This document shows, piece after piece, positions 12,541-63,210 of a stretch of 64,000 nucleotides of DNA. The notes below the pieces were generated by a model, which was given only the letters and a program-made list of their open reading frames with translations, had not been told where the DNA came from and did no database searches. Origin of the DNA: Armillaria gallica. Its lineage: Eukaryota; Basidiomycota; Agaricomycetes; Agaricales; Physalacriaceae. The position numbers and the translations under genes were made by a program. Position 1 is the stretch's first letter; each line of letters begins with the position of its first letter. Location of the stretch: NCBI GenBank assembly GCA_037576215.1, contig JBANDB010000003.1:6324001-6388000 (forward strand), in the 5' to 3' direction.

Positions 12541-14760
12541 GACACTACAGAGATAGCCTATTGGATACGCGTGATGCACCAGGTTCGAGTCCCGGGGGTG
12601 AAATCGAAACTCATTCGACGTATGTTTTGACAACTACGTTCCCGATGGCGGCAGTATCCCCTCCACGACTTCATTTTTAGTGTGTTGCCAAATCAAACTC
12701 TAGGGTAGGGTGTCGGTGGGTGGGTACAAATCGCATCGAGGTGCTTGGTTTCTACTACAGAATGATTTTCCCTTACCTGTTCGAACCCTCGCTCGCGCGC
12801 CATCTCGGACCGGCCTACTATTGAGCGCAAGAATAAAGCTCTCCCCTTCGTTCTCGACCTGGATGTGGGAACTTTTGTCTTTCCTGCCAGTCTATTGTAG
12901 CCTATTGGATATGCGTAATGCACCAGGTTCGAGTCCTGGGGGTGATATTATTATAGTCACTGCTAACTCGATTTACGTTTTGTCAATAATGTTTCCGATG
13001 ATGGTTGAGTACTGTAAACGTATGGATGTTGGGTATGTCGTGTCATTTGCTTCCCCTCCCCGACTGTGACTCGTCGATTTTTAGTGAGCTGGTCTTTATC
13101 CGAGGATGGCGGCGAACAACAAATTCTAGCCTCACCGCACTCTCGTTATTTCTCGGAGACCCGATGTTTGAACTTTTCTACGCCCTCGAATGCACTATTT
13201 CTTTTTCATTCAATTGCATGGAGGAGTGGAAGCGTGGCCTCGATTTGTACAGGGGTTTATGGTATGATGGCAAAGTCATGGTGTCTTTTTGTTCTCTGGG
13301 CTCTCTAGAATCGAACTTTATCTGTTAATGCTGCTCGTGCTTCCATTGGGAGGAGGTCGCTACTGGAAGGAGGAGGATGCATGTAGATGGTGCGGAGTTG
13401 TTCGAGTATGGTCGGCCCATTCACTAGCCTTGTTTTCTCCTAGACCTATGGCTACCCACACTACTCCCGTCGAAAGCCTAGTGGAACTATTATATAACGT
13501 ACCAGGTTCGATCTCTGGCCCGGGAGGTGGAATACTCGCTCTCTTTTTGTAATATACATACAAATCCGAGTGATGATTTTCTGCGGCGTGTGCTCTAACA
13601 CCTTGGCTTGTGATTTTCACCCTCTGAACATCCCATTCACATTATAATCCAACGACACAAGCGTCACTCAGTGCACACGTTCGATTCGTGTGGTGGACCG
13701 TACACCGCCAGAAGGAAAATCCTTTTTTTTCTACCCTGTACTTTGATTTGAGACTCTTGCTTGTTCACAAGTTGGGATCTATAAATCACATGTGCTAGCG
13801 ACTTGAAACGCATGTTTGTGAGGGTGTTCTTTTAGGTACGGCCACCGATGAGCATATTTTTGTTTCAGCCAGTGGCTGTGCTGAGTATCCCTCTTCCTCC
13901 CGTCTTCATCATCAAGGAAATCGTTTGACTATTCTTCCTCTCCAAGCAACGAGGAAACACCTCATAGAGTGCTTCGGTTTGGTCCGAAGTGTAGAGGCTC
14001 GGATGATAGGCATGCAGGTCCAAGCAGCGCAGAGAGAGCACGGTCCCGCGCTGGAAACTTTGATATGAGACTTGCTTTCTGTGTCACTTTGGAACTCTGA
14101 TGAGCATCCAGGCTCACATGCATGCACAGCTTGGCGATTAACGGCCTGCTGAACAAGCACTGCTTCCCATTGACATCCGATGGGCAGAACCCCATTGTCG
14201 CATGGAGTCACTCCGACTCACACGCATAGACTAGACGGCGCAAATAGCGCGAAATGCACGCATCCTCCCCCTTCGCCCATCGGATATGACGTCCTCGGGA
14301 ACGACATTCTTTCTGTTCCCTTCTTCGTCCGAGTGTCGGCGCGGAGAAACAAGAATCGCATGCCTGTCGACTCGTCACCTATCCCTACAAGCGACGTGTT
14401 CGCCCAAGAAACGACACCAGTCACGCACCCTGCCATCACATTTATTTGCTAGTTGCGGTCCCTCTGCGAACTTTCCGTCATTCTATACCTCCTGGCCAGC
14501 TTGATGTTATAGGTTGCTCACGAGAAAAAGAATCACATCCCTCTTACTGTACGTGCATGTCGAGTGTCTTCGTCATGACCAGGTCGTGACATGGAATTTT
14601 TGGTACGGGATTTACTTTCTAAGTCACTTGGCCACGCTCATGAGCATCTTCTATAGGTTCCCACCTCTGATTACGAGCACACTGTCCTCCCGCCCTGGGA
14701 GGAGAAGGGTGCTATGAGCATGTGGCTTTCAACGACTACGACATATGTTGCGTCGCTTCG
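12541..14760 (+). repeat. tRNA-like module array, unit A
   Basis: Modules on the plus strand are S1 at 12554-12603 and 12898-12945, a B-box-less S4 at 13216-13260, S2 at 13475-13530 and S3 at 13641-13699. The S1 T-arm is CCAGG-TTCGAGT-CCTGG; S3 is ACACG-TTCGATT-CGTGT. T-runs follow S2 (CTTTTTG, near 13548) and S3 (eight T, near 13725). The tail from 13865 holds the shared motif CAGCCAGTGGCTGTG and further family sequence. No protein gene is supported here. Confidence 0.8.
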
Positions 14761-14764
14761 CATG

Positions 14765-15796: not shown

Positions 15797-15831
15797 GGTG
15801 TTATGTGAGAAAGGAAGATAGAGACGAGGTG

Positions 15832-16140: not shown

Positions 16141-19100
16141 GATGACTGAAGGCAAGCTAGTGGCTGTGCTGGATACTCTCTTTCACTTACCACTCGTTGC
16201 TCAAAGGACACGATCTTTTCCAGTTGTCACTGTCTCACTCATGCAAATGGTTTGACTGCCTCTGGTATCTCTCTTTGAAGAAGCAATGAAGAGTATTTGA
16301 CAAGGAGCGCTTTGAAGTGTTGGAGACTTGGCTGCGGATGAGTGCTGGCAGGACGCGCAGTGCAGGTCTAGCGTGAAACTGGCAGAGAGAACAAGATACA
16401 GCTTGGTACGAAACATAGAGGACACGGTAGGGAGGAGTTCAACGCTAGTAAAGGGAGGGGGTGTAAGTGTGGATCCCAACGACTGATGCGTTGCTGCCAG
16501 TTGCTCATGTACAGCCCACTCACCAGTCTCCCTCTATTTTGCCGAACTTGTCTTGTACATCTACGTGGCATCTACTTTTCAAGGTGTTCGAGTTTGCAGC
16601 TCTCTGTCCTTTCTCGTGCATGGATCAGAGGAACACCCTACTCGTTCGCCTCTTAGTTCATGTTCGTTTGCCTTCCATCTTTGTCTCTGGGGAGAAGATC
16701 ACCAATGACGGAAATGAGAATCCAGCTGTATTGGGAAGGGAAAGGACGCCGCCTCGCCATGGACATTACTGAGAACGACACGCGTCACCGAGGAGGTGCA
16801 GCTACCACGACGTGATCCACACCACGGATGTACCCTCGCTCGCAATAGACGTGTGTAGGTTCAAGTGATGTAGAGTTTGAAATCGGTGCAGAGAGCACGA
16901 AACCGCTTGGTACGAGACTTGTTTTCCGACTTCGTTTGGCATGCTCATGATTTTAGCAGCATCGGTCCTTCCCACCCGGCGCAATTGTCGTGTGATTCTC
17001 CATCCTACTTCGACCTTCGTTTGGCACATCTTATACGTCTAAGCGAGACTCGCCCATCTAAGGACCAACCCCCTCCCTTCGCTGCCTCACTCATCCTGAT
17101 AACAGAGATCGTCAACGTCATTGTATTTCTTGTAGCCTATCGGATATGCGTAATGCACCGGGTTCGAGTTCTGGGGGTGAAATGTTGTATATACTACTGA
17201 CCCGATATACGTTTTGTCTCCGACGAGAATGGGCAGTGCGCACTGCGAACATATGAATGTTTAGTATGTCGCTTCCCCTCCTTGACTTTGACTCATTAAT
17301 TTTTAGTGGGCTGGTCCCTATCCGAGGATGGCGTCGAACAACAAATTCTGGCCCCGTGGCACTCTCGTTAATTCAGTAATTGCTCGGAGCCCGGCGGTGG
17401 AATTTCTACGTTCTCGAATAAATTCTTTCTTTTTCATTCAAGCATATATGGATGAGTGGCAGTGTGGCCCTGATAGATTCGATTCGTACAGGGGTTTATG
17501 GAATGATAGCAAGGTCGTGGTGTCTTTTTGTCCTCGGGGCTCTCTGAAATCGAATTTCTATTCAGTGTTGATGCTGCTCGTGCTTTGCAAGGAGGGGCAG
17601 AGTAGGGTGCTATGAGTGGGTGCAGAATTGTTCACGTATGGCTCACTCATCAGCCACGTTTTCATGTAGATCTGGTCTCACCGACTTACGATCCGCCTTT
17701 TACTCGTCCGGAATAATAATATGGTGCACGGGTCGAGGGAACGAGCATTCTTCCCGTCCCATTTACCCGCCGTCCTTTCGCTTCCACCTATGGCTCAGAG
17801 CTACCCACACTACTCCCGCCTAGTGGAACTGCAATATAACGTACCAGGTTCGATCCCTGGCCCGGGAGGTAGTACACTATTCATAGCATTCTTTTTGTGA
17901 TACACAAATTTGAATGATTCTCTACGGCGTGCGCTCTACCTCCTTGCTATTAGTTGGCTTTTGACACCCTTCTCCGTACTGCCATCCTTCTTCTTGATAT
18001 TTGATCTTCCTCGAGACTGCATAGTTCGTGTCAGAATTTAGAAATAACCACTCCATCCACGTTATAGTCTAGCGACACGAGAGTCAGTACACATGTTCGA
18101 TTCGTGTGGTGGGCTTTGGGAACGGCAACATTATCATTTTTTCCGCACTGGACCTTTGCTTTGAGCCCTTTCTCGTTCACACAAGCCGGTATCTATAACG
18201 CAGCCTAAGTGGTATCCCTCCGATATTCACTTGGTATCTTTCATCCCGGTTCTGGTTTGCAGTACGTTATTGCTATAGGTTGATGGACTCTCGCCGTTCC
18301 GTTACCAAGCCTCGTTGCCCACTGTGTATGGACATATGCACCAGGTTCGAACCCTGGGGGTGAACTTAAAATTGAAGGGCTCTGGTTAGAATTTCATTTT
18401 GCTCAATGCTCAGCAGTTCCCTGCTGAGTGCTCGTCGCCAGGAATCAGGATTTAGAGCCAATCTCTTTCGTATAGATAGATAGACATGAGTGTCAAGCGG
18501 ATTGTAGCCGGCAGTGGCTGTGCCTGGTATCCTGAGCCTAATCGACCACCTGGCATTTTGCAGCACGATCTTTTTCAGTCGTCGCCCTCACCTCCTTCAT
18601 CACAATCAAATCGTTTTTTCTTTGAAGAAGTAACGAGGAAATATGACAAGGAGTTCTTGAGTTTGGTCCGAAATGTAGGGGCCTTGGCATGGGAGGACGC
18701 GTGCAGGTCCAAATTAGTGCAGAGAGAGCACAGTCCCCCGATGGAATCCTTGGTACGAGACTTACTTTCTGTGTCACTGTATCACTCTAATGAGCTTCCA
18801 AGCTCACACCCGGATTGTTACCAGCGCGCTGACATACGGTGCTTCCCGCTCACCGACATTGACACCATCTGGCTTTTTCCCAGTCTCTTTCTTACACGTG
18901 TCTGGGCGATGTTCCCATTGTCGCTGGATGAACTCACCTAGGCCGTATATCATATGCCCATCCGATTCACGCGTTGCAAAGGATCCCAACGCGTGAATCC
19001 GAGGCAGGAGAAGACGCGTGTGGACAAATGAGGTTTGAGTGCGGAAATGATATCCTAGGGCTACAATCCGCGCAGAATGATTTTCTTATGGCAGCCTTTC

Positions 19101-20048
19101 CACAGCTTCTAACCACCACATGGAGGAGTGGGAGTGCGGACCCGAGATGTTCGATTCGTACCAGGGTTACGTTGACGCTCAAGGAAACTTTTCTTTCTTG
19201 CCTCTCTTGTATGTTCCCGACGGTTCTCTAAAATCCGCTCTCGAGAACGTGTTCCTGCCTTTGACCTTTATGACTGTCGAACCAGAGTTCTAAATTCTGG
19301 CTATGACTGTTGCTCATGCCTTGGACATAGAGAACACGGTGAGGAGGCCAACACTAGGAAAAGGAGTGCGTTACTGCCAGTTGATCGCGTACAGCCCACT
19401 CATCAACCTTCATTTAGATTTGGTCTCCATCTCTTTTGCCAAACTCATCCACTTGGAGCAGCTTGCGGTCTGCCTTTCAAGGTGCTCGACTTCACAACTC
19501 TCCCAGATATGGCGTCCTTCCTCGTGCTGAGTCGTGCAGCATCCATCCTGTCCTACTCGTTCACCTTTTCCCAGATACAGTTCAAGTCTCTCCACGTTCT
19601 TCTCCCTTCCATCTGGAGAGAAGATTGCAAATTACGATGAACATAATCCAGCCATATTGGGAGGGGAACGGGCGCTGTCTCGCCATCAACATCACTGAGA
19701 ACGACACGCGTCGCCGAGGAGGTACAGCTACCACGACAATATCCACACCACGGATGTACTCTCCTGGCATTATAAACGCGTGCAGGTCCAAGTAGCGTAG
19801 AGTATGAAATCGGTGCAGAGAGCACGGACCCGCTTGGTACGAGACTTGTTTTCCGACTCCGTTTGGCATGCTCATGATTTTAGCAGCATCGGTCCTTCCC
19901 ACTCGACGCGGTTGTCGTTTGATTCTCCATCACATTTCGGTTTCGCCCATCTAAGCAAAACTTGCCTAGGCCGTCTATCTAGGGATAAACCTCCTTCCTA
20001 ACTTTGTTGTCTCACTGTCAGAGGTCGTTGTTACCTGCCAGTCTATCT
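16141..20048 (+). repeat. tRNA-like module array, unit B
   Basis: Modules are S1 at 17133-17180, S4 at 17441-17500, S2 at 17818-17871, S3 at 18061-18113, a partial S1 at 18321-18365 and S4 at 19120-19167. The S2 module (TAGTGGAACT ... GGTTCGATCCC) is followed by CTTTTTG near 17889. Two copies of another internal segment (about 16480-17000 and 19365-19930, both ending near CATGCTCATGATTTTAGCAG) show that the unit is itself partly duplicated. A third copy is at 62480-63010. No intact coding sequence is seen. Confidence 0.8.
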
Positions 20049-20110
20049 TAGCCTATTGGATATGCGTAATGCACCAGGTTCGAGTCCTGGGGGTGAACTT
20101 ATCAGGGTAT

Positions 20111-20153: not shown

Positions 20154-21046
20154 CGGCTAACTCGATCTACGTTTTGTCAATAACGTCTCCAATGGGCATG
20201 GACAGTGCGAACGTATGGATGTTTGGTATGCCGTGTCATTTGCTTCCCCTGCAGCTGTCCAGCTTTGACTCATCGATTTTTACCCAGTTGAAGATGGCTT
20301 TTGTTTCAGAAATTTCTCACGGAGACCCGACGTTGGAATTTCTATGCCCTCGAATCAGTTCTTCTTTTCTATTCAGGCTTCTAACCACCGCATGGACGAG
20401 TGGGAGCGTGGCCCTGATACGTTCGATTCGTACAGTGTTTATCTAAGGCTACTATATGCGAATGTCTTTTTCGTCCTCTGTATTGAATTTCTGTTAATCC
20501 TGCTCGTGCTTTGCAAGGAGGGGAAGAGGAAGATGCTATGAGTAGGTGTGGAGTTGTTCGGCCCACTCGTCAGTCGTGTTTTCTTTTAGATCTAGTCTCA
20601 CTCTCTTTTATCGATTTACTCGCCCCGAATATGACATGCATGGATCGAGTCCCACTTCACCGTCCTTTCGCTTCCACCTATGGTTACCCACACTACTCCC
20701 GTCTAGTGGAACTCAGGCGATGTAGCAGGTTCGATCCCTGGTCCGGGAGGTGGAAGCACTGTCGTCTAGTTTTTCTTTTTGTGATACACAAATCCGAGCA
20801 TTTTCCTGCAGCATGCTACGCTCTAGCTCCTTGTTTTGATTTGCTTTTGATACCCTCTCGAGTGTCTGTACTACGATCCCTCATTCATTATTATTCTTCG
20901 TGATATTTTGTCTTTCCTCGAGGCCGTGTATTCGTTTCAGAAGTGAACATCCCAATCCACATTATAGTCCAACGACACAAGCGTCACTCAGTGCACACGT
21001 TCGATTCGTGTGGTAGACCGCACGCCGAGGAAATTTCTTTTTTTCT

Positions 21047-25391: not shown

Positions 25392-25425
25392 CGTCTTTCA
25401 GTGAGAATCGTTGGCGCCGGGACGG

Positions 25426-26580: not shown

Positions 26581-29500
26581 TGGTTTGACTACTCCTGATG
26601 TCTCTGCAACGAGGAGTACTATTTAACAAGGAGCACTTTGAAGTGTTGGAGACACTTGGCTGCGGATGAGTGCCAGCCGGGGTCTAGCGTGAAACCGGTG
26701 CAGAGAGCACGGTCCAGCTTGGTACGAGACTTCGCTTTCCGAGTTCGTTTGGCATTCTCATGAGCATTAGGTTCATCGACCTCACCTCTGATTACCAACT
26801 ATGGTCCTTCCCACCTGCCGCGGTTGTCGTCCGATTCACACCATTTGTTGTCTTCTCAGTCAACTCACGGACATGCGGCCAACGTGCAGAATTATTTTCT
26901 CTCGATTAGTGGGCCAGCCCAACAAACCTCGTCATTCTTGTTCGAACACCATCTCTTGGCTTATCACTTAGCTCTCGACCCTTTCAAACATACTTCCAAG
27001 AGCGGGGATACAGTTCCTCCCTTCGTTTCCTTTGGACGTCTCACTCTTCCGGATGTGGGAGCTTATCGTCTTTCCTGCCAGTCTATTCTAGCCTATTGGA
27101 TATGCGTAATGCACCAGGTTCGAGTCCTGGGGGTGATATTGTTAATACTACTAACTCGATCTACGTTTTGTCAATAATGTCTCTGATGAGAATGGACAGT
27201 CCGAACATATGGATGTTTGGTATGTCGTGTCATTTGCTTCCCCCACCCGACTTTGACTCATCGATTTTTAGTGAGCTGGTCCCTATCCGAGGATGGCGTC
27301 GAACAACAAATTCTAGCCTCACTGCACTCTCGTTATTTCTCGGAAATTGTTCTACGCCCTCGAATGAACTACTTTTTCATTCAACTGCATGGAGCAGCGG
27401 GAGCGCGGCCGTGATACGTTCGATTCGTACAGTGGTTCATAATATTGCTAAATCTGGATGTCTTTTTTGTCGTCTATATCAATTGATGCTGCTCGTGCTC
27501 TGCAAGGAGAGGAAGAGGAGGATGCTATGAGTGGGTGCGGGGTTGTCACCACGGATGTACTCTCCTGGCATTATAGACACGGCCAGGTTCAAGGGGCGTA
27601 GAGTATGAAATCGGTGCAGAGAGCACCCGTCCCGCTTGGTACGAGACTTGCTTTCTGAGTTCGTTTGGCATGCTCATGATTTTAGCAGCGCCATTTCGAC
27701 CTTCGTTTGGCCCATCCTATACGTCTAAGCGAAACTCGTCTATCTAGGGATCAGCCTTCTCCCTTCGTTGCTTCACTCTTCCCGATGTTGGTGTCATTGT
27801 GTCTCTTGTAGCCTATTGGATATGCGTAATGCACCGGGTTCGAGTCCCGGGGCAAGTGGCCTGTCCCTCTGACTTACGTTTTGACACGATGGCGGCTGAG
27901 CGAACGAACGTATGGATGTTCCCCGTAACTCCCGACTCGCGCGTTACGTTGATTCTCGGAGGATAAATACCGCCCGACCTGACGTTGGGATTTAAGAATC
28001 AACTCTTTTTTTGTATTCAAGCTTTAACCGCTGCATGGATGAGCGGGAACGCGGCCTCGATACGTTCGATTCGTACAGAGGTTTATAGTCGACCCACTTC
28101 CGGAGTTTTTTCGTCCCCTAGGCTATCTAGTAGTATCGATGCTGCTCATGCTTCCATTGGGACTGCAAGATGGAGATCGCTACTAGAAAGAGGAGAAAGC
28201 TGTGAGCATTCAGTTGTTCGCGTACGGCCGGCCCACTCATCAGCCTTGTTCTCGTTAGATCTGGTCTCACCGAATTCATCGACTTATGACCTACCTTTTG
28301 CTCGCCCCGAATAATGAGATGACATGCGTGGATCGAGGGAACGAGCGTTCCTCTCTCCAGCAGACCGTCCTTTCGCTTCCACCTTTGACTACCCACAGTA
28401 CTCCCGTCTAGTGGAACTGTCATATATGCACCAGGTTCGATCCCTGGCCCGGGAGGTAGTAATTTCAGAACCTTTGCTTTCTTTTTGTGACACACAAATT
28501 CGAGTGATTTGCTGCGGCGTGTGCTCTACCTCTGCTATCAGTTTGCTTTTGACACTCTTCTCCGTGCCGTCCTTCTTATTCTTCGTGATATTTTGTCCTT
28601 CCTCGAGGCCGCATAGTTCGTATCAGAAATATCCACATTGTAGTGCAGCGACACAAGCGTCAGTCAGTGCACGCGTACACGTTCGATTCGTGTGGTGGCC
28701 TTGAAACGGCGAGAAGGACGATCATTTTTTTCTACCTTGTACCTTTGATTTGAGACTTTTTCTCGTTCACAAGTTGGGATCTATAAATCACATGTACCAG
28801 CGAAGCGAATGTTTGTGAAAGTGTTCTTTTGGGTGCGACCAGTTTTTATTTCCGTCGGTGGCTGTGCTAGTATCCCTCTCCTCCCGTACTCATCATCAAA
28901 GAAATTGTTTGACTACCCTTCCTCTCTCTCTCCTTGAAGGAAGTATAATAAGGGGTGCTTTGGTTTGGTCTACTCGGCTGACAGGCGCGCAGGTCCAAGC
29001 AGCATGAAATTGGCGCAGAAGGAGCACGGTGCCGCGATGGTACGAGAGTTGGCTTCTGTGTCACTTTGGAGCTCTGATGAGCATCTAGGTTCACACCTGG
29101 ACAATTACTGATACACTGAACAAACGGTTCTTCCCTTACACACGTCTGCGTGAGGTCCCCCGAAGGGCAGAACCCCAATTGTCGCTGTATGAAGTCACCT
29201 AGGCTCACACGCGTAGACTGGGCTTGGATGCAGACGGCGCAAATATCATCCCCAGAGACGAGGATCCTGGTGTCTGTTACATCCCCGCAAAAGATGTTCT
29301 TTCCATCAGTACACGCCGCGCGTCAAATATGACGTTCTTCCTCGGGAATGACATTCTTCCCGTCCCCTTCGTCGTCTCGGCGAGACAAGAATCGCATGCC
29401 TGTCGATTCGTCACCCATACCCACAAGCACCCAAGACACGACGCCAGCCACACACCGCTCCATGACTTTGATCTACAAGTTCCGGTCCTCTGCGAACTCC

Positions 29501-40512: not shown

Positions 40513-40891
40513 GTAGGGAACGACAATTTCGGTGCGCGTCTATGCATTGCAGAAAATAAAGTCGAATCCAAGGGGACGAGTACCGTGTCTTCTGTACCGT
40601 AGTCAAAGTTGGCGAGAGCAAGCAATGAGGGTGCACAGAGTAATCTTCGAAGTAAGTTGTAAGCCACTGTTCTTTTACTCGAACAGCCTCGAGCACTTCG
40701 TCGGTGAAGCTGTGCTGGAACCGACTATCATGCCTTGCCCCAAAGTATCCGAAATTCGAATGACCGAGCGCCACAGGACACAGGACACGCAAGTAGTCAA
40801 CAAGGACAACTGCCAGCCTCACGACCCACAGATAATGATGATGGTTGCACATCAGACACGCTTTTTTAAGCTATTAGATATTTCATTAACA

Positions 40892-43881: not shown

Positions 43882-46800
43882 GCCTGGAGTACTTTGGTTT
43901 GGTCCGAAGTTTAGAAGCTCTGCTGATAGGCGGGCGATTCCAAGCAGCATGAGGGAGCATGGTCTCGCCCTGGAAACTTTGGTACGAGACTTGCTTTCTG
44001 TATCACGTTGGAACTCTGATAAGCATCTAGATTCACACCTGGGCGATTAACTGTCTGCTGAACAAACGCCGCTTCCCATTGACACCCGATGGGCAGAACC
44101 CCATTGTCGCTGTATGAGGTCACCTATGACTCGGAGCCTGGTTTCTGCATCTCCGTCGACGGTGTTCTCTCCATTAGTACGTCTTCCTTGGGGACGTCAT
44201 CCTTCCCGTCCCCTTCTTCGTCGCGGTGAGACAAGAATCACATGCCTGTCGACTCATCACCCATCCCCATAGGCGACGTGGTTGCCGAAGAAACAACACC
44301 AGCCACACACCTGCCATCAAGATATACCAGTTGTGATTCCTCTGCGAACTCTCTGCCATTCCATACCTCTTGGTCTTGATGTTCGTTGACTTCACCGAGA
44401 ACAACGCGACCAAGGCATCGGGAGACGCGACAAACAAGGGGCGAGGCTAGCTTGGTCGCACACCTGCCCTCCTTTCCTTGTATCTACGGGTCGTTTTCTC
44501 TCTGCTACCGCATGATACCCCAACTTACAAGAACAATATAACGTCATTTTTAAGACGCTCCATATCAGATCCAGATCTAGAGCCCCAATGTCATTTACCC
44601 TCCAAGTTCCTCTTATATAGGATAATATCTCTCCGACATTCGTTTAGCAACTTCCACCCGGTCCTCGTTTGCAGAGGTTGACGGATCCTCGCTGCAACCA
44701 AGGCCCATAGCCTGCACATACACACCAGGTTAGAACCATGGGGTGAACTTGCTCAATGTTCAGCAGTTTCCTGCTCGGCCCCAGGATTCGGACTCTGGAG
44801 CCACGTTCTTTGGTATAAAGAAGTGATAGACAAGACCACAGTATGGGTATTGTAGCTAGGTCCCCTGGCAGGCGAAACCCTCTTGTCGCTGTTTGAACTC
44901 GCCTAGGCCGTGTTTGCTCGTCCAAATAGTGGTTGGAGAAGAGGCTTGCGCGCGGACAAAATTTAGGTGCACGACATCCTAGGGCTACGACTCGTGCGGA
45001 ATGATTTTCTTCTACTCCAGCCCAAACCCTTCGTTCGCACCCCCATGTCATGATGCACCTCAGCCTGCCCCCGGCCCCTTCAAACTTACTACCGAGAGCA
45101 GGGACGGAAATACACTCTTCCCGATCTCCTCTATTTACGGGAGATGGTTGCCGTCTATCGTAGCCTATTGGATATGCGTAATGCACCAGGTTCGAATCCT
45201 GGGGGTGGAATCAGATAGGTATTCATAAGAACTATCTCTTGACAATAGTGATGCTAGTAGGAACATATGCTATATTCTCTGACCCTGACTCGTCGATTTT
45301 AGTGGGTTCCTTGAGCCGAATGAAATGGACCGATCGTGTGTAATCGAACATCACCCCAACCTCGCACATAACTCGCACACGTTCGTTCACATTGTTTGGA
45401 CTCGGAGGGAAGGCTCCAATGTAGACACGCACGAATCATTAGCTCCGTTTCCAACACCTCTACCACCACCGGCAAAGTGGGAGTGCGGCCCCGACGCGTT
45501 CGATCCGCGCAGTGGTTTATCACCTCGTTACGGATCTTTTTTTCCCTCCTCTCCTACGACAGACCCACTCGAATTACGCTTCCATTGAGATGGCAAGGAG
45601 GAATCCCACTGGAAGAAGAAGGAGGATACAGCTCTCAAGACAGGGTGTTCATGTATGACGCGCTCATCCGCCAGTTCTGAAAATGCCTCCTGCAAAGAGA
45701 GCTGTATGACGCGATTTGGGATTCTGTTCTTTGTGTATCGATTTGGAACGCCCACTTGGGTGCAGCTCTCCCGAACATGATATCTTTCCTCGGGAACGAC
45801 ATTCAGCACGATCATGGCCTCCCACATTGCTACGGCTCGCTCACCATCAGGCCGATACAGGCCACCACGGCGACGTCCAATCCGCAAAATACCGATATCC
45901 ATCCAAAAAACCCAGGCCAGGTCTGTAACGGAAGGAGAACATTCCACCATCGCAAACTCGTCCTGCAGTCGGAAAGAGTTTGGTATGCACAAAGCTTGAG
46001 GATGGTGGGCACCGTTATATTCGGTCTGGAACTTCGCTTCTGCTTTCTCAAAGGTACGCGTTGGATGTGAGTACAGTCATCTTATACTTATGCGCACTTA
46101 GATCTTCATTTTCGTCGTACCTCCTTCATTATATGCGCGCGCAGGCCATCAAGTATTCCCTTTGATCCATCTCTTTACACTCTCCTCGTAGCGAGACGAG
46201 GCGATGATACTGCATTTTCCGGATCCTTGGACCGAAGCTGATTGTTGTGCTCGTTCCTAGTTTCTCCGCCTCGGAAGGAGTACATTCCACCATCGCAAAC
46301 TTGTCCTGCAGTCGGAAAGAGTTTGGTATGCACAGAGCTTGAGGATGGGGGTGGGTACTGTTATTTCGGTCTGGAATTTCGCTTCTGCTTTCTCAAAGGT
46401 ACGCGTGGGATGTAAGTACAGTCATCTTGTACTTGTGCGTACTTAGATCTTCACTTTCGTCGTTCCTCCCTCATTATATGCGCGCGCAGGCCATCAAGTA
46501 ATCCCTTTGATCCATCTCTTTACCCCCTCTCGTAGCGAGACGAGGCGATGATACTGCATTTTCCGGATCCTTGGACCAAAGCTGATTGTTGTGCTCGTTC
46601 CTAGTTTCTCCGCCTTGGTCCGAATCTATGCGATAATGCATCTTTACGTGGACAATTCAGGTTCACGGAACATCGATATCCGTGACGCTATCTAAATCGC
46701 TTTTCACGTTGTTCGGGCACTGGTCGATCCCGAAGACAGGGATAGCCTATTGGATATGCGTAAAGCACCAGGTTCGAGTCCTGGGGGTGAAATCATCTGT

Positions 46801-47600
46801 TTCCACAGTCTACTTACGTTTTGATAACAATGTTTCCGATGGTGACTGAGGGAATGGACAATGCGAACGTATCCCCTCCCCGACTTTGTGTGTCGCCGAA
46901 TTGAACTCTCGACTTGGTGGGGTAATACATGTGTGGGTGGGTACAAATGGCACCGAGGTGATTGGCTACAGAAGGATTTTCTCTTGAGCATCTTACCAGT
47001 TCGACATTCTCGTTGACACGCCTTCTCGCTTCGCTCTCGATTTTACTATTGAGCGCAGGAATAAAGCTCCTTCCTTCGTTCCTTTGGACGTCTTACTCTT
47101 CTGGATGTAGGAGTTTACTGTCTTTCCTGACGGTCTATTGTAGCCTATTGGATATGCGTAATGCATCGGGTTCGAGTCCTGGAGGTGAAATGTTGAATAT
47201 GTTGTATACACTGCTGACTCTATCTACGTTTTGTCAATAACATTTCTGATGATGGCTGAGCGAACGTATGGATGTCTGGTATGTCGTGTCAATTATATCC
47301 CTCCCCGACTTTGATACCTCGATCTTTAGTGAGCTGAATGATATGGTCCTATCCGAGGATGGCGTAGAACGACCTCACCGCACTCTCGTTAATGCAGAGA
47401 ATCGAGGTCGGAATTTCTCTACACTCTCGAATGAACTCTTTCTTTTTCATTCAAATGCATGAAGTAGTGGGAGTGCGACCCTGATACGTTCCATTCGTAC
47501 AGGGTTCAATGATAATATGGCCCAATCCGGTTGTCCTTTTCGTCCTATATCAAATTTCTGTTAATGCTGCTCGTGCTCTGCAAGGAGGGGAAGAGAGCTG
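43882..47600 (+). repeat. tRNA-like module array, unit G
   Basis: Modules S1 45161-45208, S4 45465-45515, S1 46743-46790, S1 47141-47188 and S4 47461-47505. The S4 at 45465 carries a doubly changed but still paired T-stem, ACGCG-TTCGATC-CGCGC. T-runs follow at 45538 and 47537. The usual S2 and S3 are missing; the unit ends abruptly at about 47598, where the common continuation is replaced by unrelated sequence. Confidence 0.78.
45930..46613 (+). repeat. 343-bp tandem duplication of a gene-remnant repeat
   Basis: Copies 45930-46272 and 46273-46613 are very similar. Each contains GTTTGGTATGCACA and a conserved intron-like block beginning GTACGCG and ending GCGCGCGCAG. The same block occurs once at about 12085-12330 as part of the remnant of an unknown gene. 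It is therefore a dispersed fragment of that gene, later tandemly doubled. Confidence 0.8.
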
Positions 47601-50226: not shown

Positions 50227-51240
50227 TAAGGTCTCCGAGAATGTGCATGCGATTGGGAAGTAGGCAAAGAAGGACGGGTGCTCGCGCCGTTATGATATCT
50301 GGAATGAAAGAAACACGTGTCCTACTTTGCGTTCTATTCCCGTGGGGTTCCTTTGTGGTTATAGACGACTCCTGAACAAGAAAAGGTTCATAGCAACAGA
50401 ACAAGTGATTGATGTTTCAGGAAGTACCCACCCCACGAATCGAACGTGTGCATTGACTTTTGTGTCGTTAGACTATGATGTGGATGGGATGTTCACTCCT
50501 GGAACGAAGCATATCAAGGAGCCGGGACTACAGAAAGGGCGGGAGAGCCAGAAGTGGGAAGAACGAGAAATCGAGTAATGACGAGCCTGGCGTTGTATCG
50601 TAGCTGACCCTAAAGCACGAGGAGAGAGTCGAAGGCGATTCTAAACGTGTCTCGTCCCGCAGCCGGTGGATAAGATAACCAAGGTAGAGCGCAGAAAATC
50701 ACTCGGATTCGTTTGCTTCCAGTGATCACGACCAAAAATGGCTCGTGGGATATACGGTGATTTCACCTCCAGGAGTCAAACCTGGCACAAATATTATTGA
50801 TTCCACTAGGCTACGTGCACGTGCACGGTGGGTGTGATGACGTCGTAGTAGTTGCATCTCCTTGGCCTGAATACGAGCGGCGCATACAGTAAGACCAGTC
50901 GAGAGTATGCGATCAAACATGCTTCTCCGCATGTCTCGTCCTGCCAGGACGTCGAAGTCTTGAAATGACTAACAGGACGGTCTCTGGGAAAAAGCGAGCA
51001 GCTTGAAGTGGGACGGGGAGAATGTCGTGACCGAGGAAGGACGTCATATTCGAGAGATATGCATCTCGAAAGGTTGTTCCAAGTCCAAGTCGATCTGTGA
51101 AGTAGTCTAGTGATGAGTCAGAGTCGGAAAGTGGGAGGAGTGATACAGCATACCAAAACATCTGCGTCGATCCTCGTTCCTGCCACGAGAAAGTGTACGA
51201 AGGAGAATAACGACTGGGAGGATGGCGTGAACTAAACATA
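50227..51240 (-). repeat. tRNA-like module array in inverted orientation, unit H
   Basis: Direct-orientation copy of 35376-36260. On the minus strand S3 lies at 50424-50482 and S2 at 50762-50813 (B-box altered to GTTTGACTC in the plain strand sense). Together with the methyltransferase fragment it shows that one segment carrying gene and repeats was duplicated. Confidence 0.78.
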
Positions 51241-51540: not shown

Positions 51541-52935
51541 GGCATAATAGATGATGGCTGTCGGTTAGTAAGAAAGACACGGCACAGCCACTGGCTAAAG
51601 TGACACAGTGTCAACACAGTGTAGCCCTCTGACCGCGACCATCACAATATAACAAGACCGAGCCTTCTGCTACTTGAAGTACTTATGCCTGGCGGGGGGA
51701 GTGCTAGACAGGGTACCACAGAAGACGTGCAGATATTCCTAGTACGTCGTTGCTATGGCCCATATTATATTCATCAGTGATTCAGCCCTTTTGTCTTTAG
51801 ATCTGACCTTATGACGCGACGTTGTGCTTTGGTCTTGGCCTAACGACTTACAATCCAAAGTATCTGATGTTTAGTTGCTGAACACCACCTGTCGCTGTCA
51901 ACACTCTTCTCAGACCCTTACATGGCACGTCCGTGTGAGGTCCGGAACTTTGTTGTCGCGGTATGAAGTCACCTAGGCTGTCTATTCTCACATGCGTGGG
52001 CGAAATTCAACAAATGACATCCCAAAGACGAGGAACCTACATCCCCGAAGATTACTCTGCGCATCCTCATTGCTTCCTCTCGCCAACTTCGACTATGGTA
52101 CAGTTTTATGCAGAGAAGACATGGTGCTCGTCGCCTTGATTCGACTCTATTCTCTACAATGCGTAGACGTGAACCGAGATTGTCGTCCCCTGCCGGTCTA
52201 TTGGGTATGTATAATGCACCAGGTTCGAGTCCTGGGGATGGAAATCACTCTGAGTGCGTGTTATTTTGACAATTGATGGTGGGAAAGTACGCTTGGTCTG
52301 TCAAAGCATTCCTCCCACTCTCCGATTTTGATTCATCGATTTTTAGTGGCTTAGGAAGTGGTCCGCACCTGAGGATGGTTCTCGTCGCGTCCAACAACGT
52401 CACTACACTCAGCTTGTGACTCGCACACGTTCCTTCATATGGGGCTTGGACTCGGAGGAAAAGGTCCTTGAATGTAGATGCACTCAAATCATTACCTCTT
52501 TTTCCAACACTTCTAACCACCACATGGAGAAGTGGGAGTGCAGCCCGGACACGTTCGATTCATGCAGGGGGTTGTTGCTCGAACCGTGCGGAATACTTTC
52601 TCTCTCGAACGTCCGCCCAGCTCGAATCCCTTTTCGTACGCACTTAGCATTTGAGCTCGAGATCTTGGCCCATTTAAACATACTGCCGAGAGCAGGGATA
52701 AAGTACCTCCCTGGCGATCCCCGTCGCCTTTCTGCCAGTCCATTGTGGGTATGCGTAATGCACCAGGTCCGAGTCCTGGGCGTGAACTGACTTGCATTTT
52801 GTCATCTACGGCCGAGTGCGGAACGGACGACCATTCTTCCTTCCCAATTGTCGCTTTGACTCGTCTAAATTTTCTTCTTAGCAGACGAAAGGCCCGCACA
52901 TGTGAATAGGGATGCCTTCAAGCCGTAACATTCAG
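51541..52935 (+). repeat. tRNA-like module array, unit I
   Basis: Modules S1 52196-52241, S4 52517-52570 and S1 52738-52786 (B-box here GTCCGAGTC). The part 51880-52250 corresponds to 58860-59190. The right end abuts the inverted duplication arm. Confidence 0.75.
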
Positions 52936-56212: not shown

Positions 56213-56442
56213 GGTACGAGGCTTGCCTTCTTTATCATTTCGGAACTCTAATGAGCATCTAGACTCGATATCAATGTTCACACCCGGACGATTACCAACA
56301 CGCTGAATGCTGTTCCCTCCTGCAGGCCGTTGACACCATCCGAGTCCCTTAAGGTTATACCGTGACGTCGTCTGGACAAGGTCCCCTGGCAAATGAAACC
56401 AAAATCTGACTCTTCGATGCGGTAAATCGTTGCAGTCTATCG

Positions 56443-59400
56443 TAGCCTATTGGGTATGCGTGATGCACCAGGTTCGAATCCTGGGGGTGAAATCAGATAG
56501 TAATCCATACAATAGGACCGAACTATCTTTGACAACGTAGGAACGTATGTTCGGTATGTAATGTCATTCCTCCAGCTCTCCGACTGTAACTCGTCAGTTT
56601 TAGAGCGTCTCCTTGAGCCGAATGAAATGGACTGTACTTGAGGATGGCGTGAATCGCACACGTTCATTCATGCAGTGCTTGGACTCGGAGGAAAGGGTAT
56701 TTGAATGCAGACGCACTCGAATCGTTACCTCCTTTTCCGGCACTTATATGCACCACACGGCGAAGTGGGAGTACGGCTCCGACGCGTTCGATTCGTGCAG
56801 GGGTTTATAACTTCTTTGCGATTATCTTTTTTTAGGAGCATTTTCCCTCTTCTCCTGCGACTGTCTCGCCAGACCCACTTACATGATGAGGAGGTTCTCG
56901 GCGGCTTTTTTCTGTACCCCATCAGCCCGTTCTTCTGCGAGGGTTGTGGTTCTTCCCATCGGGGTGCAGCTCTCGAATATGGCATCCTTCCTCGGGAACA
57001 TCCTTCCTGTACCGCTTGCCTGCCTCTTCCCAGTTACCGTCTTGATGGACGTTCAAGTCCAGGTCCTTTTCCCTTCCAGCGTACCCCCTTTGGATTGGGG
57101 GAGAAGTTTGCGAATCACGGCAAGGAAAGGGCGGCGGGAAAAGAATTACACGCCTCTTGGCAACGTGCCTTCCGTGCATGCCATCACTAAAACGCCGAAC
57201 TACCTCCCGTAGCCTGGTGCAGGTGAATAACGCTGTGATTCTACTGTTTCTTTTGGTCGTGATCGGAAATCCGAGTGATTTTCAGCGCTCTACCTTGGTT
57301 TTCTTGTTCCGGGATAAGGCACATCGGGAGTTTGTCTTTGACTCCCTCTCTGTACTACGTGCATGCCATAAATATAGGGCTCAGACATTGACGCATCGTC
57401 CGACTATCACCGTCCTTCGTTTATTCTTATTCTTCGTGATATTTCGCCTCCTCAGCGTCATAATTTATTTTAGAAGCGACCATTCCATCCACGTTATAGT
57501 CCAACGACACGAGTGTCAGTGCACACGTTCGATTCGTGTAGTGGACCTTTTTCAGAAGAAACCTCTATTTTTTCTGCACTGTACTTTTGATTCGAGACCC
57601 TTTCTTGTTCACACGTTGGTATCTATAAATTACATATACATCGTCTAATGTGCTTGCACAGATGTACCAGGTTCGAATACTGGAGGTGGAACATACATCT
57701 GGCATCCCATATTTTTTGGGATGCTTTCAATGTAACCACGACACCACGTTTGCACGATGTTTTCTATGTAGAACTAACAAGTTCAGAGTAACCTCCTCAA
57801 GTCGTTCAAACATTGTCTACTCACTCTTTATTTAGCAAGGAAGACGCGCGGAGAAACACCGTTCATCCGCTTGGCGTACACGTTCCTCATCCTGTAGGAA
57901 CATCATGTACAGGGAAGTAGCCAATACTGAATGTTCAACGTTCAGGTTCGAATCCTGCAGTGTCGTTCGCAAAACAGCAGTCATCACTTCTTTTGATGTA
58001 TCAATCCTTTTGAACCCACATTTCCCATCTCCCTTTGCTAGCAATCCTTGTCGTGGAATCGTCTTTGGAAAACACCAAAGCACTAATCGACACTTTAGTC
58101 AGTGGCAGTGCCACAACTTTCTTACCCATCGACAGCCATCACGCAGGATGCCAATTGTTTGACTATGGAGCGACGAGGAAATATCACACGCTCGTTTCAA
58201 AAGATCATCAGATTCCTTAACGCTTGAGCATGCTTCCCTCTGTCTCTCTCTCCGGACTTCTCCTGCCATCTTCCTTTCGACAACCCCTTCTCATCGCTTC
58301 CAACCACCACCCCATGGCGAAGTGGAAGTCCGGCTGCCCCGAAACGTTCGATTCGTACAAGTGGTCTAGTCTATGGTGCAAAAATGAGTGCTTTTCCTTC
58401 TTATTCAAAATTCCTGTAGAGTGTCTTGACGTGGGAGTAATCGATCCGCTGATCTTCGAGGCGTTATGTTCGAGGCAAGGCGGTTGATGCGTACATGTTC
58501 GCTTCGTGTGGGCCGGTGGCTGTGTTCCTTTTTTACCGCGACAACCACTATCATTTTAACAAGACTGAGCCTTCTGATAACGTCGGCTATTTATGCTTCT
58601 GTGGAGATGGCGGTGGTACTCAGGGTCAGTATTGGGGAGAGAGGGGTAATGTGAGTGCGTGCGGCTACCACGAAGATGTGCGTATAGAGCACGTATGACT
58701 ATTCCTGGTGCGTCGTTGCTATGGCCCTTTCATCAGCGATTCAGCGCTCAGCCATTTGTCTTTAGATCTGACCTTATGACGTGACGTTGTGCTTTGGTCT
58801 TTGCCTATCGTCTGACAATCCAAAGTATTTATCTGATGTTTGGTTTGCGCGCTCCGCTGAACACCGCCTGCCGCCGTCAACACTCTTCACAGTACGTCTG
58901 TGTGAGGTTCCCGGAAGTTTGTTGTCGCTACATTCGGCAGTCACCTAGGCTATCTATTCTCACACGCGTGGACGGGGCTCGATATCCCCAGAGACGAGGA
59001 GCCTCCATCCCCGTCGAAGATTACTCTGTGCACCCTTATTACTTCCTCTCGCCAACTTCTACAGTTTTTTTCACGGTGCTCGTCGCCTTGGATTCGACTG
59101 CAATGCGTAGATGTACACCGAGATTGTCGTTCCCTACCAGTCTATTGGGTATGCATAATGCACCAGGTTCGAGTCCTGGGGGTAGAAATCACTCTGAGTG
59201 TGTGTCATTTTGACAATTGATGGTGGGAACGTAAGCCTGGTTTGTCGTATCATTCCTCCCGCTCTCTGTTTTTGACTCATCGCTTTTTAGTGGTCTGCTT
59301 GAGCTAAGGAAATGGACCTCAAACTTCATATATTGATTGGAAAGGCTCCCTGAATGTAGACGCTCGAATCATTATCTCTGCTTTGCCGACACTTCTGACC

Positions 59401-61300
59401 ACTACACGGTGAAGTGGGAGTGCGGCCCCGACACGTTCGATTCGTGCAGGAGGTCACTGTATCGGCTCATCAGAGCTGTAATCTTTTTCCAATCCCTTTC
59501 CCTCTTCTGTCACGCTGAATTACACTTCAAGGAGGAAGCTAGAAAAGGCTAGATGACCCGTTCTTCTGCAAGGGTTGTGGTTCGACCCCGCATATAGTAC
59601 CCTGCAGCTCTCCCGAATATGACGTCCTTCCTCAGGAACAGCATCCTTCCCATCCCGTCCATGTGTCTCGCGTCTCCAGCACACCCGCTTTTGCTTGGAC
59701 TCTGGAGGGATGAATCCAGTTGCCCTGAGAAGGGGCGGCGGGACGAGAATCGCATGCATCTCTCGGACATGCATGCCATCACTAAAAACACCGGCTACAA
59801 CGAGTAGCCCCCGTAGCCTAGCGGAACTGTATAATTATGTACCAGGTTCGACTCCTGGAGGTGAATTGATCGTTCTTACAGCGTTTCTTCTTTTGTCAGA
59901 GCTACGATACATCGCCCACACCATACTCGGTTTGTCCCATCAATCTTCTTCCTGCCAATGTTCCGACTCTCTGTCTTGCACTTGGGCTGAGCCTGCATCG
60001 GTAGAGAGTTCTTGACAAACGTTAACTTTCGGCCACATCATAATCTAACGAGACAAGACTCAATGCACACGTTCGATTCGCGTGGTGGTCTTGCCCCACT
60101 TGCGGTATTCGAATTTTTTTGTATTGCACCTACATTGCACTTTCTATGCATATCAAGTCTTTTCGAATCTGTGACCTTTCTCTGTAGTCTGTGAACAGTT
60201 GTGGCGGCACAGAACCCCGGCGTTCTTTTTTGGGACCTTGTCCGGTTATCTAAACTCTAAACTCTTTGCTAGCTCTGTGCCATCTTTGGAACGAAAATAG
60301 ACTTCAGCTCGTGGCTGTGTTACACGTTCAGGCATGCATTATTGTCAACCGACAATCATCACAGTGACCTTTTTCGCCTCATCTGCTATAGTATCGCTTG
60401 GCTGTACTCTCTTTCGAACGAGCGACAAGGACCAATGCGACATTCTACCATGCAATGTGGTCTCGCGAAGAAGACTGGCCAGTCCACATCCCGGTCGAAG
60501 TTCTGATAATGGCTGGTATTCATGCCGTGGCTGATGAATGGGATGACGCGTGTGTCGTTGCCTATTGTTCGCTTATAAGTTATGGCCCACTCCGAAGTGT
60601 AGGATGTGATGGATGGCAAGCGTGCGCGTGATGACGTAGGGCATAAATTGGCACAGAGAGAACACAGACCCGCGATGGAATTTCTGGTGCGAAACTTACT
60701 TTTGATATTACTTTGGAACTTTGATGAGCATCTAGGTTCACCGCCCTCCATTACCAGCATGCTGAACAAACGGCGCTTCCCACCTACCATCCGAGTCCTT
60801 GATACATGTCTGGGTGAGGTCCCCCGGGGAGTAGGACCTCATTATCGCTGTTTGAAGAAGCCTAGGTCGTCTATACTCGTCCGACTGACAGGGTTTGAAT
60901 GATGCAGACAACACAAATGACATCCCCAGAGACAGGGATCTACTTCCCCGCAGCAGATTCTCTTTCGATTAGTGCGCACGTCCTCCCAGTCGCCGTTCTC
61001 CTCCGCACGCCCTCTCTTTGCTTGCGCCAGCTTCGACTCGATTGCTTCAAGTTTTCAGGGCGCTCAAACTTAGGATTCGAAGAACCCACAGTACTCGGGG
61101 TTTATTTTCCTTGGAACATCCGACTCTCACCGATGGCTATTTTAAACTTCGCCTACGTGCACCAACATATAGGCCTTCTTGTCTTTCCTGGTAGCCTATT
61201 TGGTATGCGTAGCACCAGGTTCGAGTTCTGAGGGTGGAATCAGGAATGCCTAAGCCACTTTTTGACAACCAAGGTCGGCTGAACAAACGGTTTTTTGGTA
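56443..61300 (+). repeat. tRNA-like module array, unit J (two consecutive series)
   Basis: First series: S1 56443-56490, S4 56757-56802, a deleted S2 near 57209, S3 57491-57547, S5 57641-57690, S6 57898-57965, S4 58314-58362 and an S3 variant 58481-58522 (ACATG-TTCGCTT-CGTGT). Second series: S1 59141-59185, S4 59406-59452, S2 59814-59866, S3 60037-60090, S1 61192-61237 and a degenerate S4 near 61408. T-runs follow almost every module, for example 57708, 58528, 59487 and 60113. Confidence 0.82.
59814..59866 (+). repeat. Reference S2 module with exact A and B boxes
   Basis: TAGCCTAGCGG matches the Pol III A-box consensus and GGTTCGACTCC the B-box; they are about 31 nt apart. The T-arm is CCAGG-TTCGACT-CCTGG. 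A T-rich end (CTTCTTTTG) follows 25-30 nt downstream. Confidence 0.7.
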
Positions 61301-63210
61301 TGTCGTATCCCGACTTCGAGTTTTAGTAAGAAAGGCTCTGACACCTCGTTTGAATTTAGACGCGCTCGGCCGTCCATGGTTAGCTCTTTTTCCAATGCTT
61401 CCAACTACCGCATGAATGAGCGGGAGTGCGGCCCTGAACCGTACATGGGTTTATATATTGAGATGTATCTCCTAACCTTTGACGGTGTCTTTTTCTTCCT
61501 CTGGACTATCTACGGAGTGCATGGGGCTGATCTTTTGTACTATCCAAGTCATGACCAAGTCCTCCATAGAGTCGAAGAATTCGATTGTGAAACTAATCGG
61601 AATGGCTGTAGTTAAACCTCCAGGCCATTCAGCGTCCTCCGGGGTCCGGAAAAGACCTCCCCAGTGTCGCTTTATCTAGATTCCCCGATCTTCAAAGGGC
61701 ACAACGTAGAAGAAGTGCAAGAACATACGGCATTATGGACCATTATTGTACAAGCTGGTTGTTTTCGTTGTCGACTCAGAGGTTGGTGAGAATATCAGAG
61801 ATGCAGATATGATAACCCCTGCCGGCAGCCGGACGATAGATACCGTGCCTCTAGCTGAGACAATAGCGACGACCTCAAGGCTGCGGCTAACATACGCTGT
61901 CGCAATGCATTTGTCGGCAGTTCCGTAATTGACGATCAAGTCCCACTATACTAGACGACCGACACCATCGAGGTAAATGCTTCTGGATGTCGAAGGCCAA
62001 ACTGTATCATCGAGAGTCCATTATGAAGGTCCCATCTGCAAGATTTCTCTAGTCAGCGCTAGCCTTAGTTAACCAGTAACAACAGCTTGTAATAAACTTA
62101 CAAGGAAGGTCGAAGACGAAGGTTGAACGAAAGGTTTAGATCGGTGACCGGGCCGAATGCCGGTCAACTAGCAAGACAAATTCACCAAGAACACTTTCAA
62201 GGTCACCGATCCCACCTACTACCCGCCTCTCTTTCAATACGGCACCGGCTTCAAGTATTATCGACTCCTCGACTATGCGCTTCATCATCACCTCGTGGAG
62301 GTACTCGAGAACCCAGAGTACGGCGATTTCGAAGACATCAGAGGAGGCCTCGTCATAGCTCCTGCTTTTCACCGCGACCAACCCAATTTCTGCTGCTTGC
62401 GCCTCCGTTGAAAAGATTAGGGAATTATGGAGCAAGGGAAGAGAAGACTGATGAACGTAGGGGTCTCAACGACTACCACAGATAGTGCGTTGCTTCCAGT
62501 TATTCGAGTACTGCCCACTCATCGAATCTTTTTTAGAACTGGTCTCGTTCTCAAACTATCTTCCGCAAGAAGGGCTACGGATGTCGCGGTTTTGCGTATC
62601 GATTTTGAACCGCTTGCGTGCGGCTCTTGCTCTCCAAATTAGCGGCGGTTCACTATGGATTGTCGTAGCAGGTTGCATGATTGGCTATTTCCTTGCCTCG
62701 GCTCTGGGGAGAAGATGGCAAGGAGAACCCAGCTACATTACGAGGTGGTCGAACGGAAAAGACAGGAATCGAACCGTCTCGCGTGGATGATCATCGACAT
62801 CACTGAGAACGCCAAGCTTGCATCGACGCCGAGGAGGTACAGCTGCCGCAACGTCATCTATGCCAGGACCGGTGTACTCTTGCTGGCATTAGAGACGCGT
62901 GCAGATTCAAGCGACGTAGAAATTGGCGCAGAGAGAGCACGGTCTGACTTGGTAAGAGACTTGGGTTCCGAGTTCGTTTGGCATGCTCACGATATTACCA
63001 GCGCGCTGCACAGACGGTCCTTCCCGCCAGGTATGGTGCACCACTTCTCATGCATATCGATTCTTTTCGAATTTTTAATCTAGCGCTTCGTGCCATTTCT
63101 GGAACGATAGTAACCGAGAATAATTTAGCCAGTGGCTGTGTTACACGTTCAGGCGCGCATTCTTTATCACACGTAGTTGGTCAATACATGTTGGTCATAG
63201 CTACGTTGTG
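61301..63210 (+). repeat. Right end of the array with unrelated gene scraps
   Basis: Array tail segments include 62480-63010, which repeats 16480-17000 and 19365-19930, and the motif TAGCCAGTGGCTGTG at about 63127. Between them (about 61440-62470) lies non-array sequence with short open stretches. The array stops at about 63210, directly at the truncated gene. Confidence 0.65.
62165..62410 (+). pseudogene. Coding fragment of an unrecognised gene
   Basis: A plus-strand frame with strongly gene-like codon use (mostly C-ending) reads TFKVTDPTYYPPLFQYGTGF, then LLDYALHHHLVEVLENPEYG and DIRGGLVIAPAFHRDQP. It lacks start, stop and continuation on either side. It appears to be an exon-sized scrap inserted in repeat sequence. 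Confidence 0.45.

Follow-up and report, generated by a model that had tools for sequence, protein, structure and literature searches.

What are the transfer RNA (tRNA)-like modules that crowd a 64-kb stretch of contig 3 (positions 6324001-6388000; hereafter the window) in the Armillaria gallica genome (86.0 Mb, 28 contigs)? The original prediction described about fifty of them, each shaped like a small type-2 RNA polymerase III (Pol III) gene with an A box, a B box set in a tRNA-type T-arm and a terminal run of T, and considered them to be either tRNA-derived short interspersed nuclear elements (SINEs) or a family of small structured RNAs. The modules are confirmed as a real feature of the window, and the array that they form belongs to a larger phenomenon of this genome. 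Their layout, spacing, order, pattern of conservation and genomic distribution can be read directly from the DNA, and we consider it quite probable that the arrays consist of putative small Pol III genes for tRNA-like RNAs devoid of an anticodon arm, which would have been amplified segmentally and kept by selection on the tRNA-like part.

The B-box motif GTTCGANTC occurs in 40 exact copies on the two strands of the window, where 2.85 are expected and none of 100 shuffled sequences reaches 40. The excess that had been predicted stands, although the exact copies are fewer than the roughly fifty given for it. Because the genome-wide count of the motif is only slightly above that of its reversal (3894 versus 3129), the excess is local. 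Across the 314 kb that we sampled (the window, 200 kb from other pieces of contig 3, 30 kb from contig 1 and 20 kb from contig 6), stem-bearing B boxes number 179 compared to 3 for the reversed motif, and the B box of type-2 Pol III genes, GGTTCGANTCC, is found both in the window and in the larger sample; 166 of the 179 sites entered the class statistics, the other 13 belonging to clusters of one or two. Class-specific hidden Markov models (HMMs), which also accept mutated B boxes, recognize 55 non-overlapping modules in the window after removal of seven overlapping fragments, 48 on the plus and 7 on the minus strand, and 231 in the 314 kb (252 matches less 21 overlapping fragments), versus none in the reversed sequence. 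The window modules fall into six classes, namely, A (19), D (15), C (9), E (8), F (2) and G (2). Nearly all exact motif copies (38/40) lie inside modules, the two outsiders being located at 13308 and 62766, both on the minus strand, and 17 of the 55 modules carry no exact copy. The forecast of at least six unrelated classes was right as to the number, but not all of the classes are unrelated, since A, E and F have the same CCAGG/CCTGG T-stem and GGTGAAAT end.

A perfect A box (TRGYNNANNNG) is present in 83 of 194 modules pooled from contigs 3, 1 and 6, compared to 0/194 for a control stretch upstream; with at most one mismatch, the respective numbers are 176 and 49, in agreement with the A box originally proposed. 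The modal start of the A box lies 28-33 nucleotides (nt) 5' of the B box in nine of the 12 classes (39 nt in C1b and 24 nt in L), and no A box within one mismatch was found in class I (four modules). In 23 real intronless tRNAs of this genome, the interval between the two boxes is 44-57 nt, and the shortening seen in the modules would correspond to about the size of one lost anticodon arm. The T-stem at the exact GTTCGANTC matches comprises five pairs in 21/40 cases, four in 12 and three in 7, whereas five and four pairs form at 2.8% and 13.4% of background positions, respectively. The T-arm itself (5 bp with a 7-nt loop) is accordingly in clear excess, but the statement that nearly all copies sit in such a hairpin was somewhat too strong. 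Over the modules, the four outer pairs are formed in 93, 93, 91 and 65% of cases, with the lowest value at the outermost pair, whereas no pair exceeds 81% when the partners are slid by one to three columns, and the pair types shift in step between classes (GC/CG, AT/CG/GC, CG/TA). The consensus fold (RNAalifold) of class A is a mini-cloverleaf with a D arm, a four-pair central hairpin, a T arm and a weak outer stem, with 91.6% of cells paired, and that of class C includes a four-pair acceptor-like stem adjoining the T arm; the 4-bp versions of the acceptor stem are paired in 80.8% (class A) and 89.0% (class C) of cells.

The third signal of a type-2 Pol III gene, the T-run, is equally regular. 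Among 193 modules whose B box is intact, the first run of at least four T begins 36-52 nt after the start of this box in 153, compared to 5.6% of random places, and 48 of the 55 window modules have such a run within 60 nt past the module end. With the A box at a workable distance, this lends statistical support to the predicted T-runs and to the type-2 layout as a whole. Of the 12 clusters, 11 have a median T-run start of 41-46.5 nt, with no difference between contigs 1 and 3, the exception being cluster 11 (class L, four members) with 29.5 nt. At twenty further loci on contigs 1, 2, 6, 10 and 18, it is located at 37-49 nt, although the selecting pattern itself demands TTTT after 24-38 nt; one of these loci, L080, is called as a tRNA-Gln with an intron. 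Genome-wide, a GGG/CCC T-stem pattern followed by TTTT after 24-38 nt has 600 matches versus 2 for its reversal, compared to 79 versus 6 for TTTT after 8-22 nt and 182 versus 9 for TTTT after 40-54 nt; in all of these counts an element may appear repeatedly, once per T register, such repeats making up 15 of 81 rows of one list and 20 of 79 rows of that for 8-22 nt.

How such modules fared after duplication is seen in pairs of copies, considered at sites with at least 600 bases of context. Where the flanks are 64% identical (52 pairs), the 5' part of the module without the B box is 78% identical and the trailer, that is, the segment between the tRNA-like part and the T-run, 55%; the corresponding values are 90% and 69% for flanks at 74% (15 pairs), and 89% and 84% for flanks at 85% (11 pairs). 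With flanks at 50-60% (1493 pairs, mostly too diverged to align there), this 5' part shows 66% identity versus 52% for flanks and 46% for trailers. The 5' part exceeds the flanks in 86% of 250 pairs, which share sequences and are not independent. In the profile over all self-alignments, identity is 78-95% from -30 to +19, mostly 62-77% in the flanks and 55-59% from +20 to +39. A T-arm no better conserved than its surroundings had been set beforehand as the outcome that would speak against the prediction; this outcome is not observed, as modules are more similar than their flanks at all levels of divergence, by little in the closest pairs, and remain so when the B box is disregarded. Trailer identity is at or below that of the flanks save in the closest pairs, but we do not claim that trailers change faster than flanks, because short segments align worse by chance. 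We read this pattern as suggestive of purifying selection on the tRNA-like part and of none on the trailer sequence.

The classes follow each other in a repeated cassette order, A-D-E-C-F-G, which accounts for 89 of 155 adjacencies within 1.5 kb (shuffle mean 19.1, maximum 31), and the cassettes sit in long self-duplications of 59-93% identity (the 70 longest of 226). In genome-wide searches with up to three mismatches, all 24 class A matches lie in 6.079-6.528 Mb of contig 3 and 37 of 39 class C matches in 6.066-6.527 Mb, the remaining two being on contig 6, with no match to the reversed control of either class. Similarly, all but 3 of 48 rows for ACGTTCGANNCGT followed by a T-run, a pattern that fits classes C and D, fall in 6.066-6.527 Mb of contig 3. 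Matches with the same layout are found on at least five further contigs. Among the matches listed, other candidate arrays are located on contig 1 (95-143 kb, 0.46-0.79, 5.9-6.8 and 7.4-8.4 Mb), contig 2 (0.22-0.36 and 1.3-1.8 Mb), contig 3 (6.8-7.9 Mb), contig 10 (3.08-3.11 Mb) and contig 18 (1.5-1.65 Mb), with a few matches on contig 6. In a subtelomeric array at 22-52 kb of contig 1 (L021-L023), which comprises three other classes, the terminator is spaced in the same way. Another tRNA-like family, marked by CAG(C/T)CAGAGAG 3' of the B box, is present on contigs 1, 2, 3, 4 and 5 (e.g., at 6830090 of contig 3 and 6494471 of contig 4); the likeness between its members ends at about +20, and the trailers behind are unrelated. 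A few longer elements (~106 nt) of the contig 3 array, outside the window, do score as tRNAs, namely, L053, L054 and L055 (6.52, 6.53 and 6.45 Mb) and one at 6262214-6262321, with 51 bits to RF00005; ARAGORN calls the first three Thr(agt) or Ser(aga) with introns of 22-25 nt. These longer elements possibly represent the parent tRNA type of class G.

The features of the window, with every module called by the class HMMs, are as follows (window coordinates and strand; "no T-run" stands for no T-run within 60 nt):

12551..61439, no strand, array stretch inside the window (genome-wide class A and C matches span 6.066-6.528 Mb of contig 3)
12551..12602, +, class A module
12884..12945, +, class A module
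13206..13257, +, class D module, mutated B box
13470..13524, +, class E module, mutated B box
13631..13697, +, class C module
17128..17181, +, class A module, mutated B box
17445..17496, +, class D module, mutated B box
17806..17866, +, class E module
18051..18113, +, class C module
18310..18364, +, class A module
19106..19168, +, class D module
20035..20097, +, class A module, no T-run
20378..20439, +, class D module
20688..20747, +, class E module
20954..21017, +, class C module
27075..27136, +, class A module
27376..27437, +, class D module
27801..27852, +, class A module
28023..28083, +, class D module
28394..28454, +, class E module
28630..28699, +, class C module
30105..30164, +, class A module
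30445..30508, +, class D module, mutated B box
30891..30950, +, class E module
31186..31248, +, class C module
31326..31385, +, class F module
31643..31704, +, class G module
32525..32577, +, class D module (diverged subtype)
35593..35655, -, class C module
35949..36010, -, class E module
36580..36641, -, class A module, no T-run
37203..37262, -, class A module, mutated B box, no T-run
40464..40524, -, class A module, no T-run
45148..45208, +, class A module, no T-run
45462..45517, +, class D module
46739..46791, +, class A module
47127..47189, +, class A module
47448..47504, +, class D module, mutated B box
50427..50489, -, class C module
50762..50822, -, class E module, mutated B box
52185..52241, +, class A module
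52509..52572, +, class D module, no T-run
52734..52786, +, class A module, mutated B box
56430..56491, +, class A module, no T-run
56742..56805, +, class D module
57483..57545, +, class C module
57628..57690, +, class F module, mutated B box
57904..57962, +, class G module
58305..58359, +, class D module (diverged subtype)
59126..59184, +, class A module
59391..59453, +, class D module
59805..59865, +, class E module
60028..60090, +, class C module
61183..61237, +, class A module, mutated B box
61397..61439, +, class D module, mutated B box (partial)

A Pfam search with 10 of the 52 listed open reading frames (ORFs) of the window returned a gene with a heterokaryon incompatibility (HET) domain, methyltransferase and DUF6534 matches that are both just below the cut-off, one match at E 0.044 and no match for the other six. 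The HET-domain gene (40892-42598, minus strand) lies inside the array, and its product is 94% identical to a protein of Armillaria nabsnona and 81-84% identical to further proteins of A. luteobubalina, A. nabsnona and A. novae-zelandiae. The weak DUF6534 match belongs to an inverted duplication (38412-40516 and 52732-54860) of 2.1 kb with 85% identity. A conserved block at 18480-18941 (plus strand) has similar stretches near 13.9, 21.2, 29.0, 37.6 and 43.9 kb, several of them behind class C modules; one copy contains a protein-like ORF, which has no Pfam match and whose reading frame is interrupted in the other copies examined. Judging from the ORF list alone, ORFs of a Ty3-type retroelement occupy positions 542-3856 (plus strand) in three stop-to-stop pieces. 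Guide RNAs of Fanzor/TnpB nucleases were rejected as a candidate, given that PF07282 has no match genome-wide, although diverged Fanzors may escape a single profile.

We infer that the modules are transcribed, that the transcripts are processed and that it is the tRNA-like part which functions. TFIIIC would bind the A and B boxes, both internal to the transcribed sequence, and Pol III would stop at the T-run ~43 nt after the start of the B box. The predicted product, an RNA of roughly 90 nt, would begin with a short leader and continue with a mini-cloverleaf made up of a D arm, at most a tiny central hairpin, a T arm and a weak stem of acceptor type, followed by the ~22-nt trailer and terminal U residues. 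Its probable handling by La and RNase Z, as part of the tRNA 3' machinery, would free the tRNA-like part and the trailer. The small structured RNAs of the original prediction fit this model, although the length modelled from box and T-run positions comes closer to 90 nt than to the proposed 100-130 nt.

Several observations weigh against this interpretation. Of the modules with an intact B box, 40/193 lack a T-run at the usual position. RNAalifold draws the T arm in only 8 of 13 class sets (A, C, D, F, C1a, C1b, C1c and L) and gives other folds for E, E2, G, I and J, most of which comprise 3-4 sequences (12 for E). Covariation in class A, with five pairs changed on both sides, exceeds that of shuffled alignments just modestly (matched by 4/500), and that in class C, with 88.8% of cells paired, does not exceed it. 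The 7-bp acceptor stem of a tRNA is weak across classes, the cut-off being reached by 33% of modules versus 22% of controls. The conservation sites were picked by the presence of a B box and a T-stem, so that only sequence outside these two escapes the resulting bias; the 5' part of the module without the B box suffers least from it. Among the nine closest pairs (flanks above 90%), the module is only slightly ahead (97.5 versus 95.2%), with trailers 99% alike. Finally, ARAGORN and Rfam, even with E values up to 1, report no tRNA and no known RNA in the window. Given these results and the modal interval of 28-33 nt between the boxes versus 44-57 nt in real tRNAs, the window modules do not qualify as tRNAs proper with a full cloverleaf and anticodon arm, and known Rfam families were rejected as well.

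Alternatively, the trailer might be the product: RNase Z would free a ~22-nt RNA with a U tail for loading onto one of many putative Argonautes, and the array would be a store of sequence-free small RNAs, each transcribed on its own, comparable to the loci of type-I Piwi-interacting RNAs (piRNAs) of nematodes but relying on Pol III. We regard this as possible, if doubtful. Trailer length is narrow, with 109 of 127 non-redundant trailers measuring 17-27 nt (mode 21, counted from +22), and the sequence is not conserved beyond the flanks, which equally fits a discarded trailer. For comparison, we used 40 ARAGORN-called genes out of 54 tRNA-family matches in the same genome, including four elements inside the contig 3 array (L048, L053, L054 and L055) and leaving out seven matches on contig 23 and seven others. 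(Contig 23, which carries its seven listed matches within 94 kb, is perhaps mitochondrial.) These genes end 21-25 nt after the start of the B box and are followed by a T-run after 0-25 nt (median 11.5); by the same measure, module trailers are ~22 nt long, and the shortest lengths found in tRNA genes do not occur among them, but 16-25 nt are also seen in 17/40 tRNA genes. Likewise, base +21 is a T in 74% of 110 non-redundant modules of contigs 3 and 6, but 25/40 tRNA-gene trailers begin with T, and neither length nor first base is therefore special to the modules. Trailers are not complementary to their own leader and body (5.06 versus 5.11), which rules out a within-transcript hairpin as in microRNA (miRNA) precursors. 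When targets of the trailers were sought, a 13-mer shared with another place in the 314 kb was found in 27 of 127 trailers (shuffled mean 8.0), which paralogous copies explain as easily. The genome has 38 Piwi-domain matches on ten contigs (2-6, 8, 12, 14, 18 and 20, including a group on contig 12), suggesting many Argonaute genes or fragments, and the milR-4 small RNA of Neurospora is cut from behind a tRNA by RNase Z (PMC3547838), but human Argonautes contain almost no trailer RNAs (PMC4203973). The bolder form of this idea, in which several hundred or more mini-genes, each with a conserved tRNA-like processing signal and a length-fixed trailer of ~22 nt freed by RNase Z as a guide for an expanded Argonaute family, would make up an Armillaria Pol III counterpart of piRNA clusters, appears unlikely.

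Improbable, too, is that the modules are tRNA-derived SINEs spread by the reverse transcriptase of a long interspersed nuclear element, one of the two identities originally offered. A type-2 Pol III promoter with a tRNA-like 5' part is what such elements have, and other families of this genome, for example, that with GGGTTCGACTCCCAG(C/T)CAGAGAG, occur on several contigs and look dispersed. However, genome-wide matches of classes A and C lie at this locus (24/24 and 37/39, respectively, the former in one 450-kb stretch), save for two class C matches on contig 6, and both classes were therefore rejected as dispersed SINEs; the fixed cassette order and shared flanks, which also mask insertion edges, point to segmental duplication, and likeness falls after about +20 with differing trailers, where a SINE is expected to share its tail. 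Clusters of B boxes are known as chromatin boundaries in fission yeast, and the dense B boxes over ~460 kb might similarly be sites bound by TFIIIC without any RNA; given that a T-run at fixed distance and a paired T-stem are present, neither of which is needed for boundary function, this is highly improbable. We consider equally remote the idea that the modules are tRNA pseudogenes in decay, multiplied merely because the DNA around them was duplicated: the lost anticodon arm, the window modules without an exact motif and the long self-duplications are consistent with it, but the 5' part of the modules remains more similar than the flanks after duplication in most of the non-independent pairs.

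The arrays point to an undescribed family of small RNAs, best explained as putative products of small Pol III genes with a selected tRNA-like part. Among the papers listed by literature searches that took in few subscription journals and no bioRxiv, none deals with nuclear tRNA-like arrays in Armillaria or other mushrooms. If transcribed, the modules would add to the non-coding genes of fungi a large class that escapes ARAGORN and Rfam in the window, in a genus that includes forest pathogens. The array would also be a test case for a tRNA gene turning into something else, with the decoding arm gone and the promoter, T arm and terminator spacing kept, and trailers of fixed length and free sequence make a role in small-RNA production directly testable.

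Comparison with known systems places the modules near several of them. The milR-4 and other Pol III-dependent microRNA-like RNAs (milRNAs) of Neurospora crassa likewise combine a Pol III-type unit, a tRNA or tRNA-like part, a short RNA stretch and a T-run; in milR-4, the tRNA precedes the small RNA, RNase Z sets the 5' end of the latter and the T-run lies behind the milRNA (PMC3547838). However, milR-4 is flanked by an alanine tRNA on either side and has a star-strand partner (PMC3547838), whereas the leading part of the modules could not serve as a tRNA in decoding, neither a hairpin nor a star strand was seen in the unit as searched up to the T-run, which follows after ~22 nt, and layout matches number hundreds in the genome. 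The tRNA-miRNA-encoded RNAs (TMERs) of murine gammaherpesvirus 68 resemble the modules in the tRNA-like 5' part, A and B boxes, TTTT end and presence of several per genome, but are viral and few, with a triplicated A box and miRNA hairpins behind the tRNA-like part where the modules have ~22 nt (PMC8223928). Eukaryotic tRNA gene clusters share the tandem arrangement of Pol III tRNA-type genes but consist of tRNAs and tRNA-related sequences (PMC2888827), unlike the window modules with their shortened interval between the boxes and no tRNA call. Nematode type-I piRNA (21U) loci give rise to small RNAs of free sequence, as the modules would if their trailers were the product. They are similar in layout only, comprising very many independent mini-genes in megabase clusters, each with its own promoter motif (PMC6436959, PMC11262695); theirs, however, is an upstream motif used by Pol II, whereas the modules have internal signals of Pol III type. 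Finally, AfuSINE2 of Aspergillus fumigatus is a case of tRNA-related repeats in a fungus, but it is reported with target-site duplications (PMC5063351), whereas classes A and C of the window are local and their cassettes ordered.

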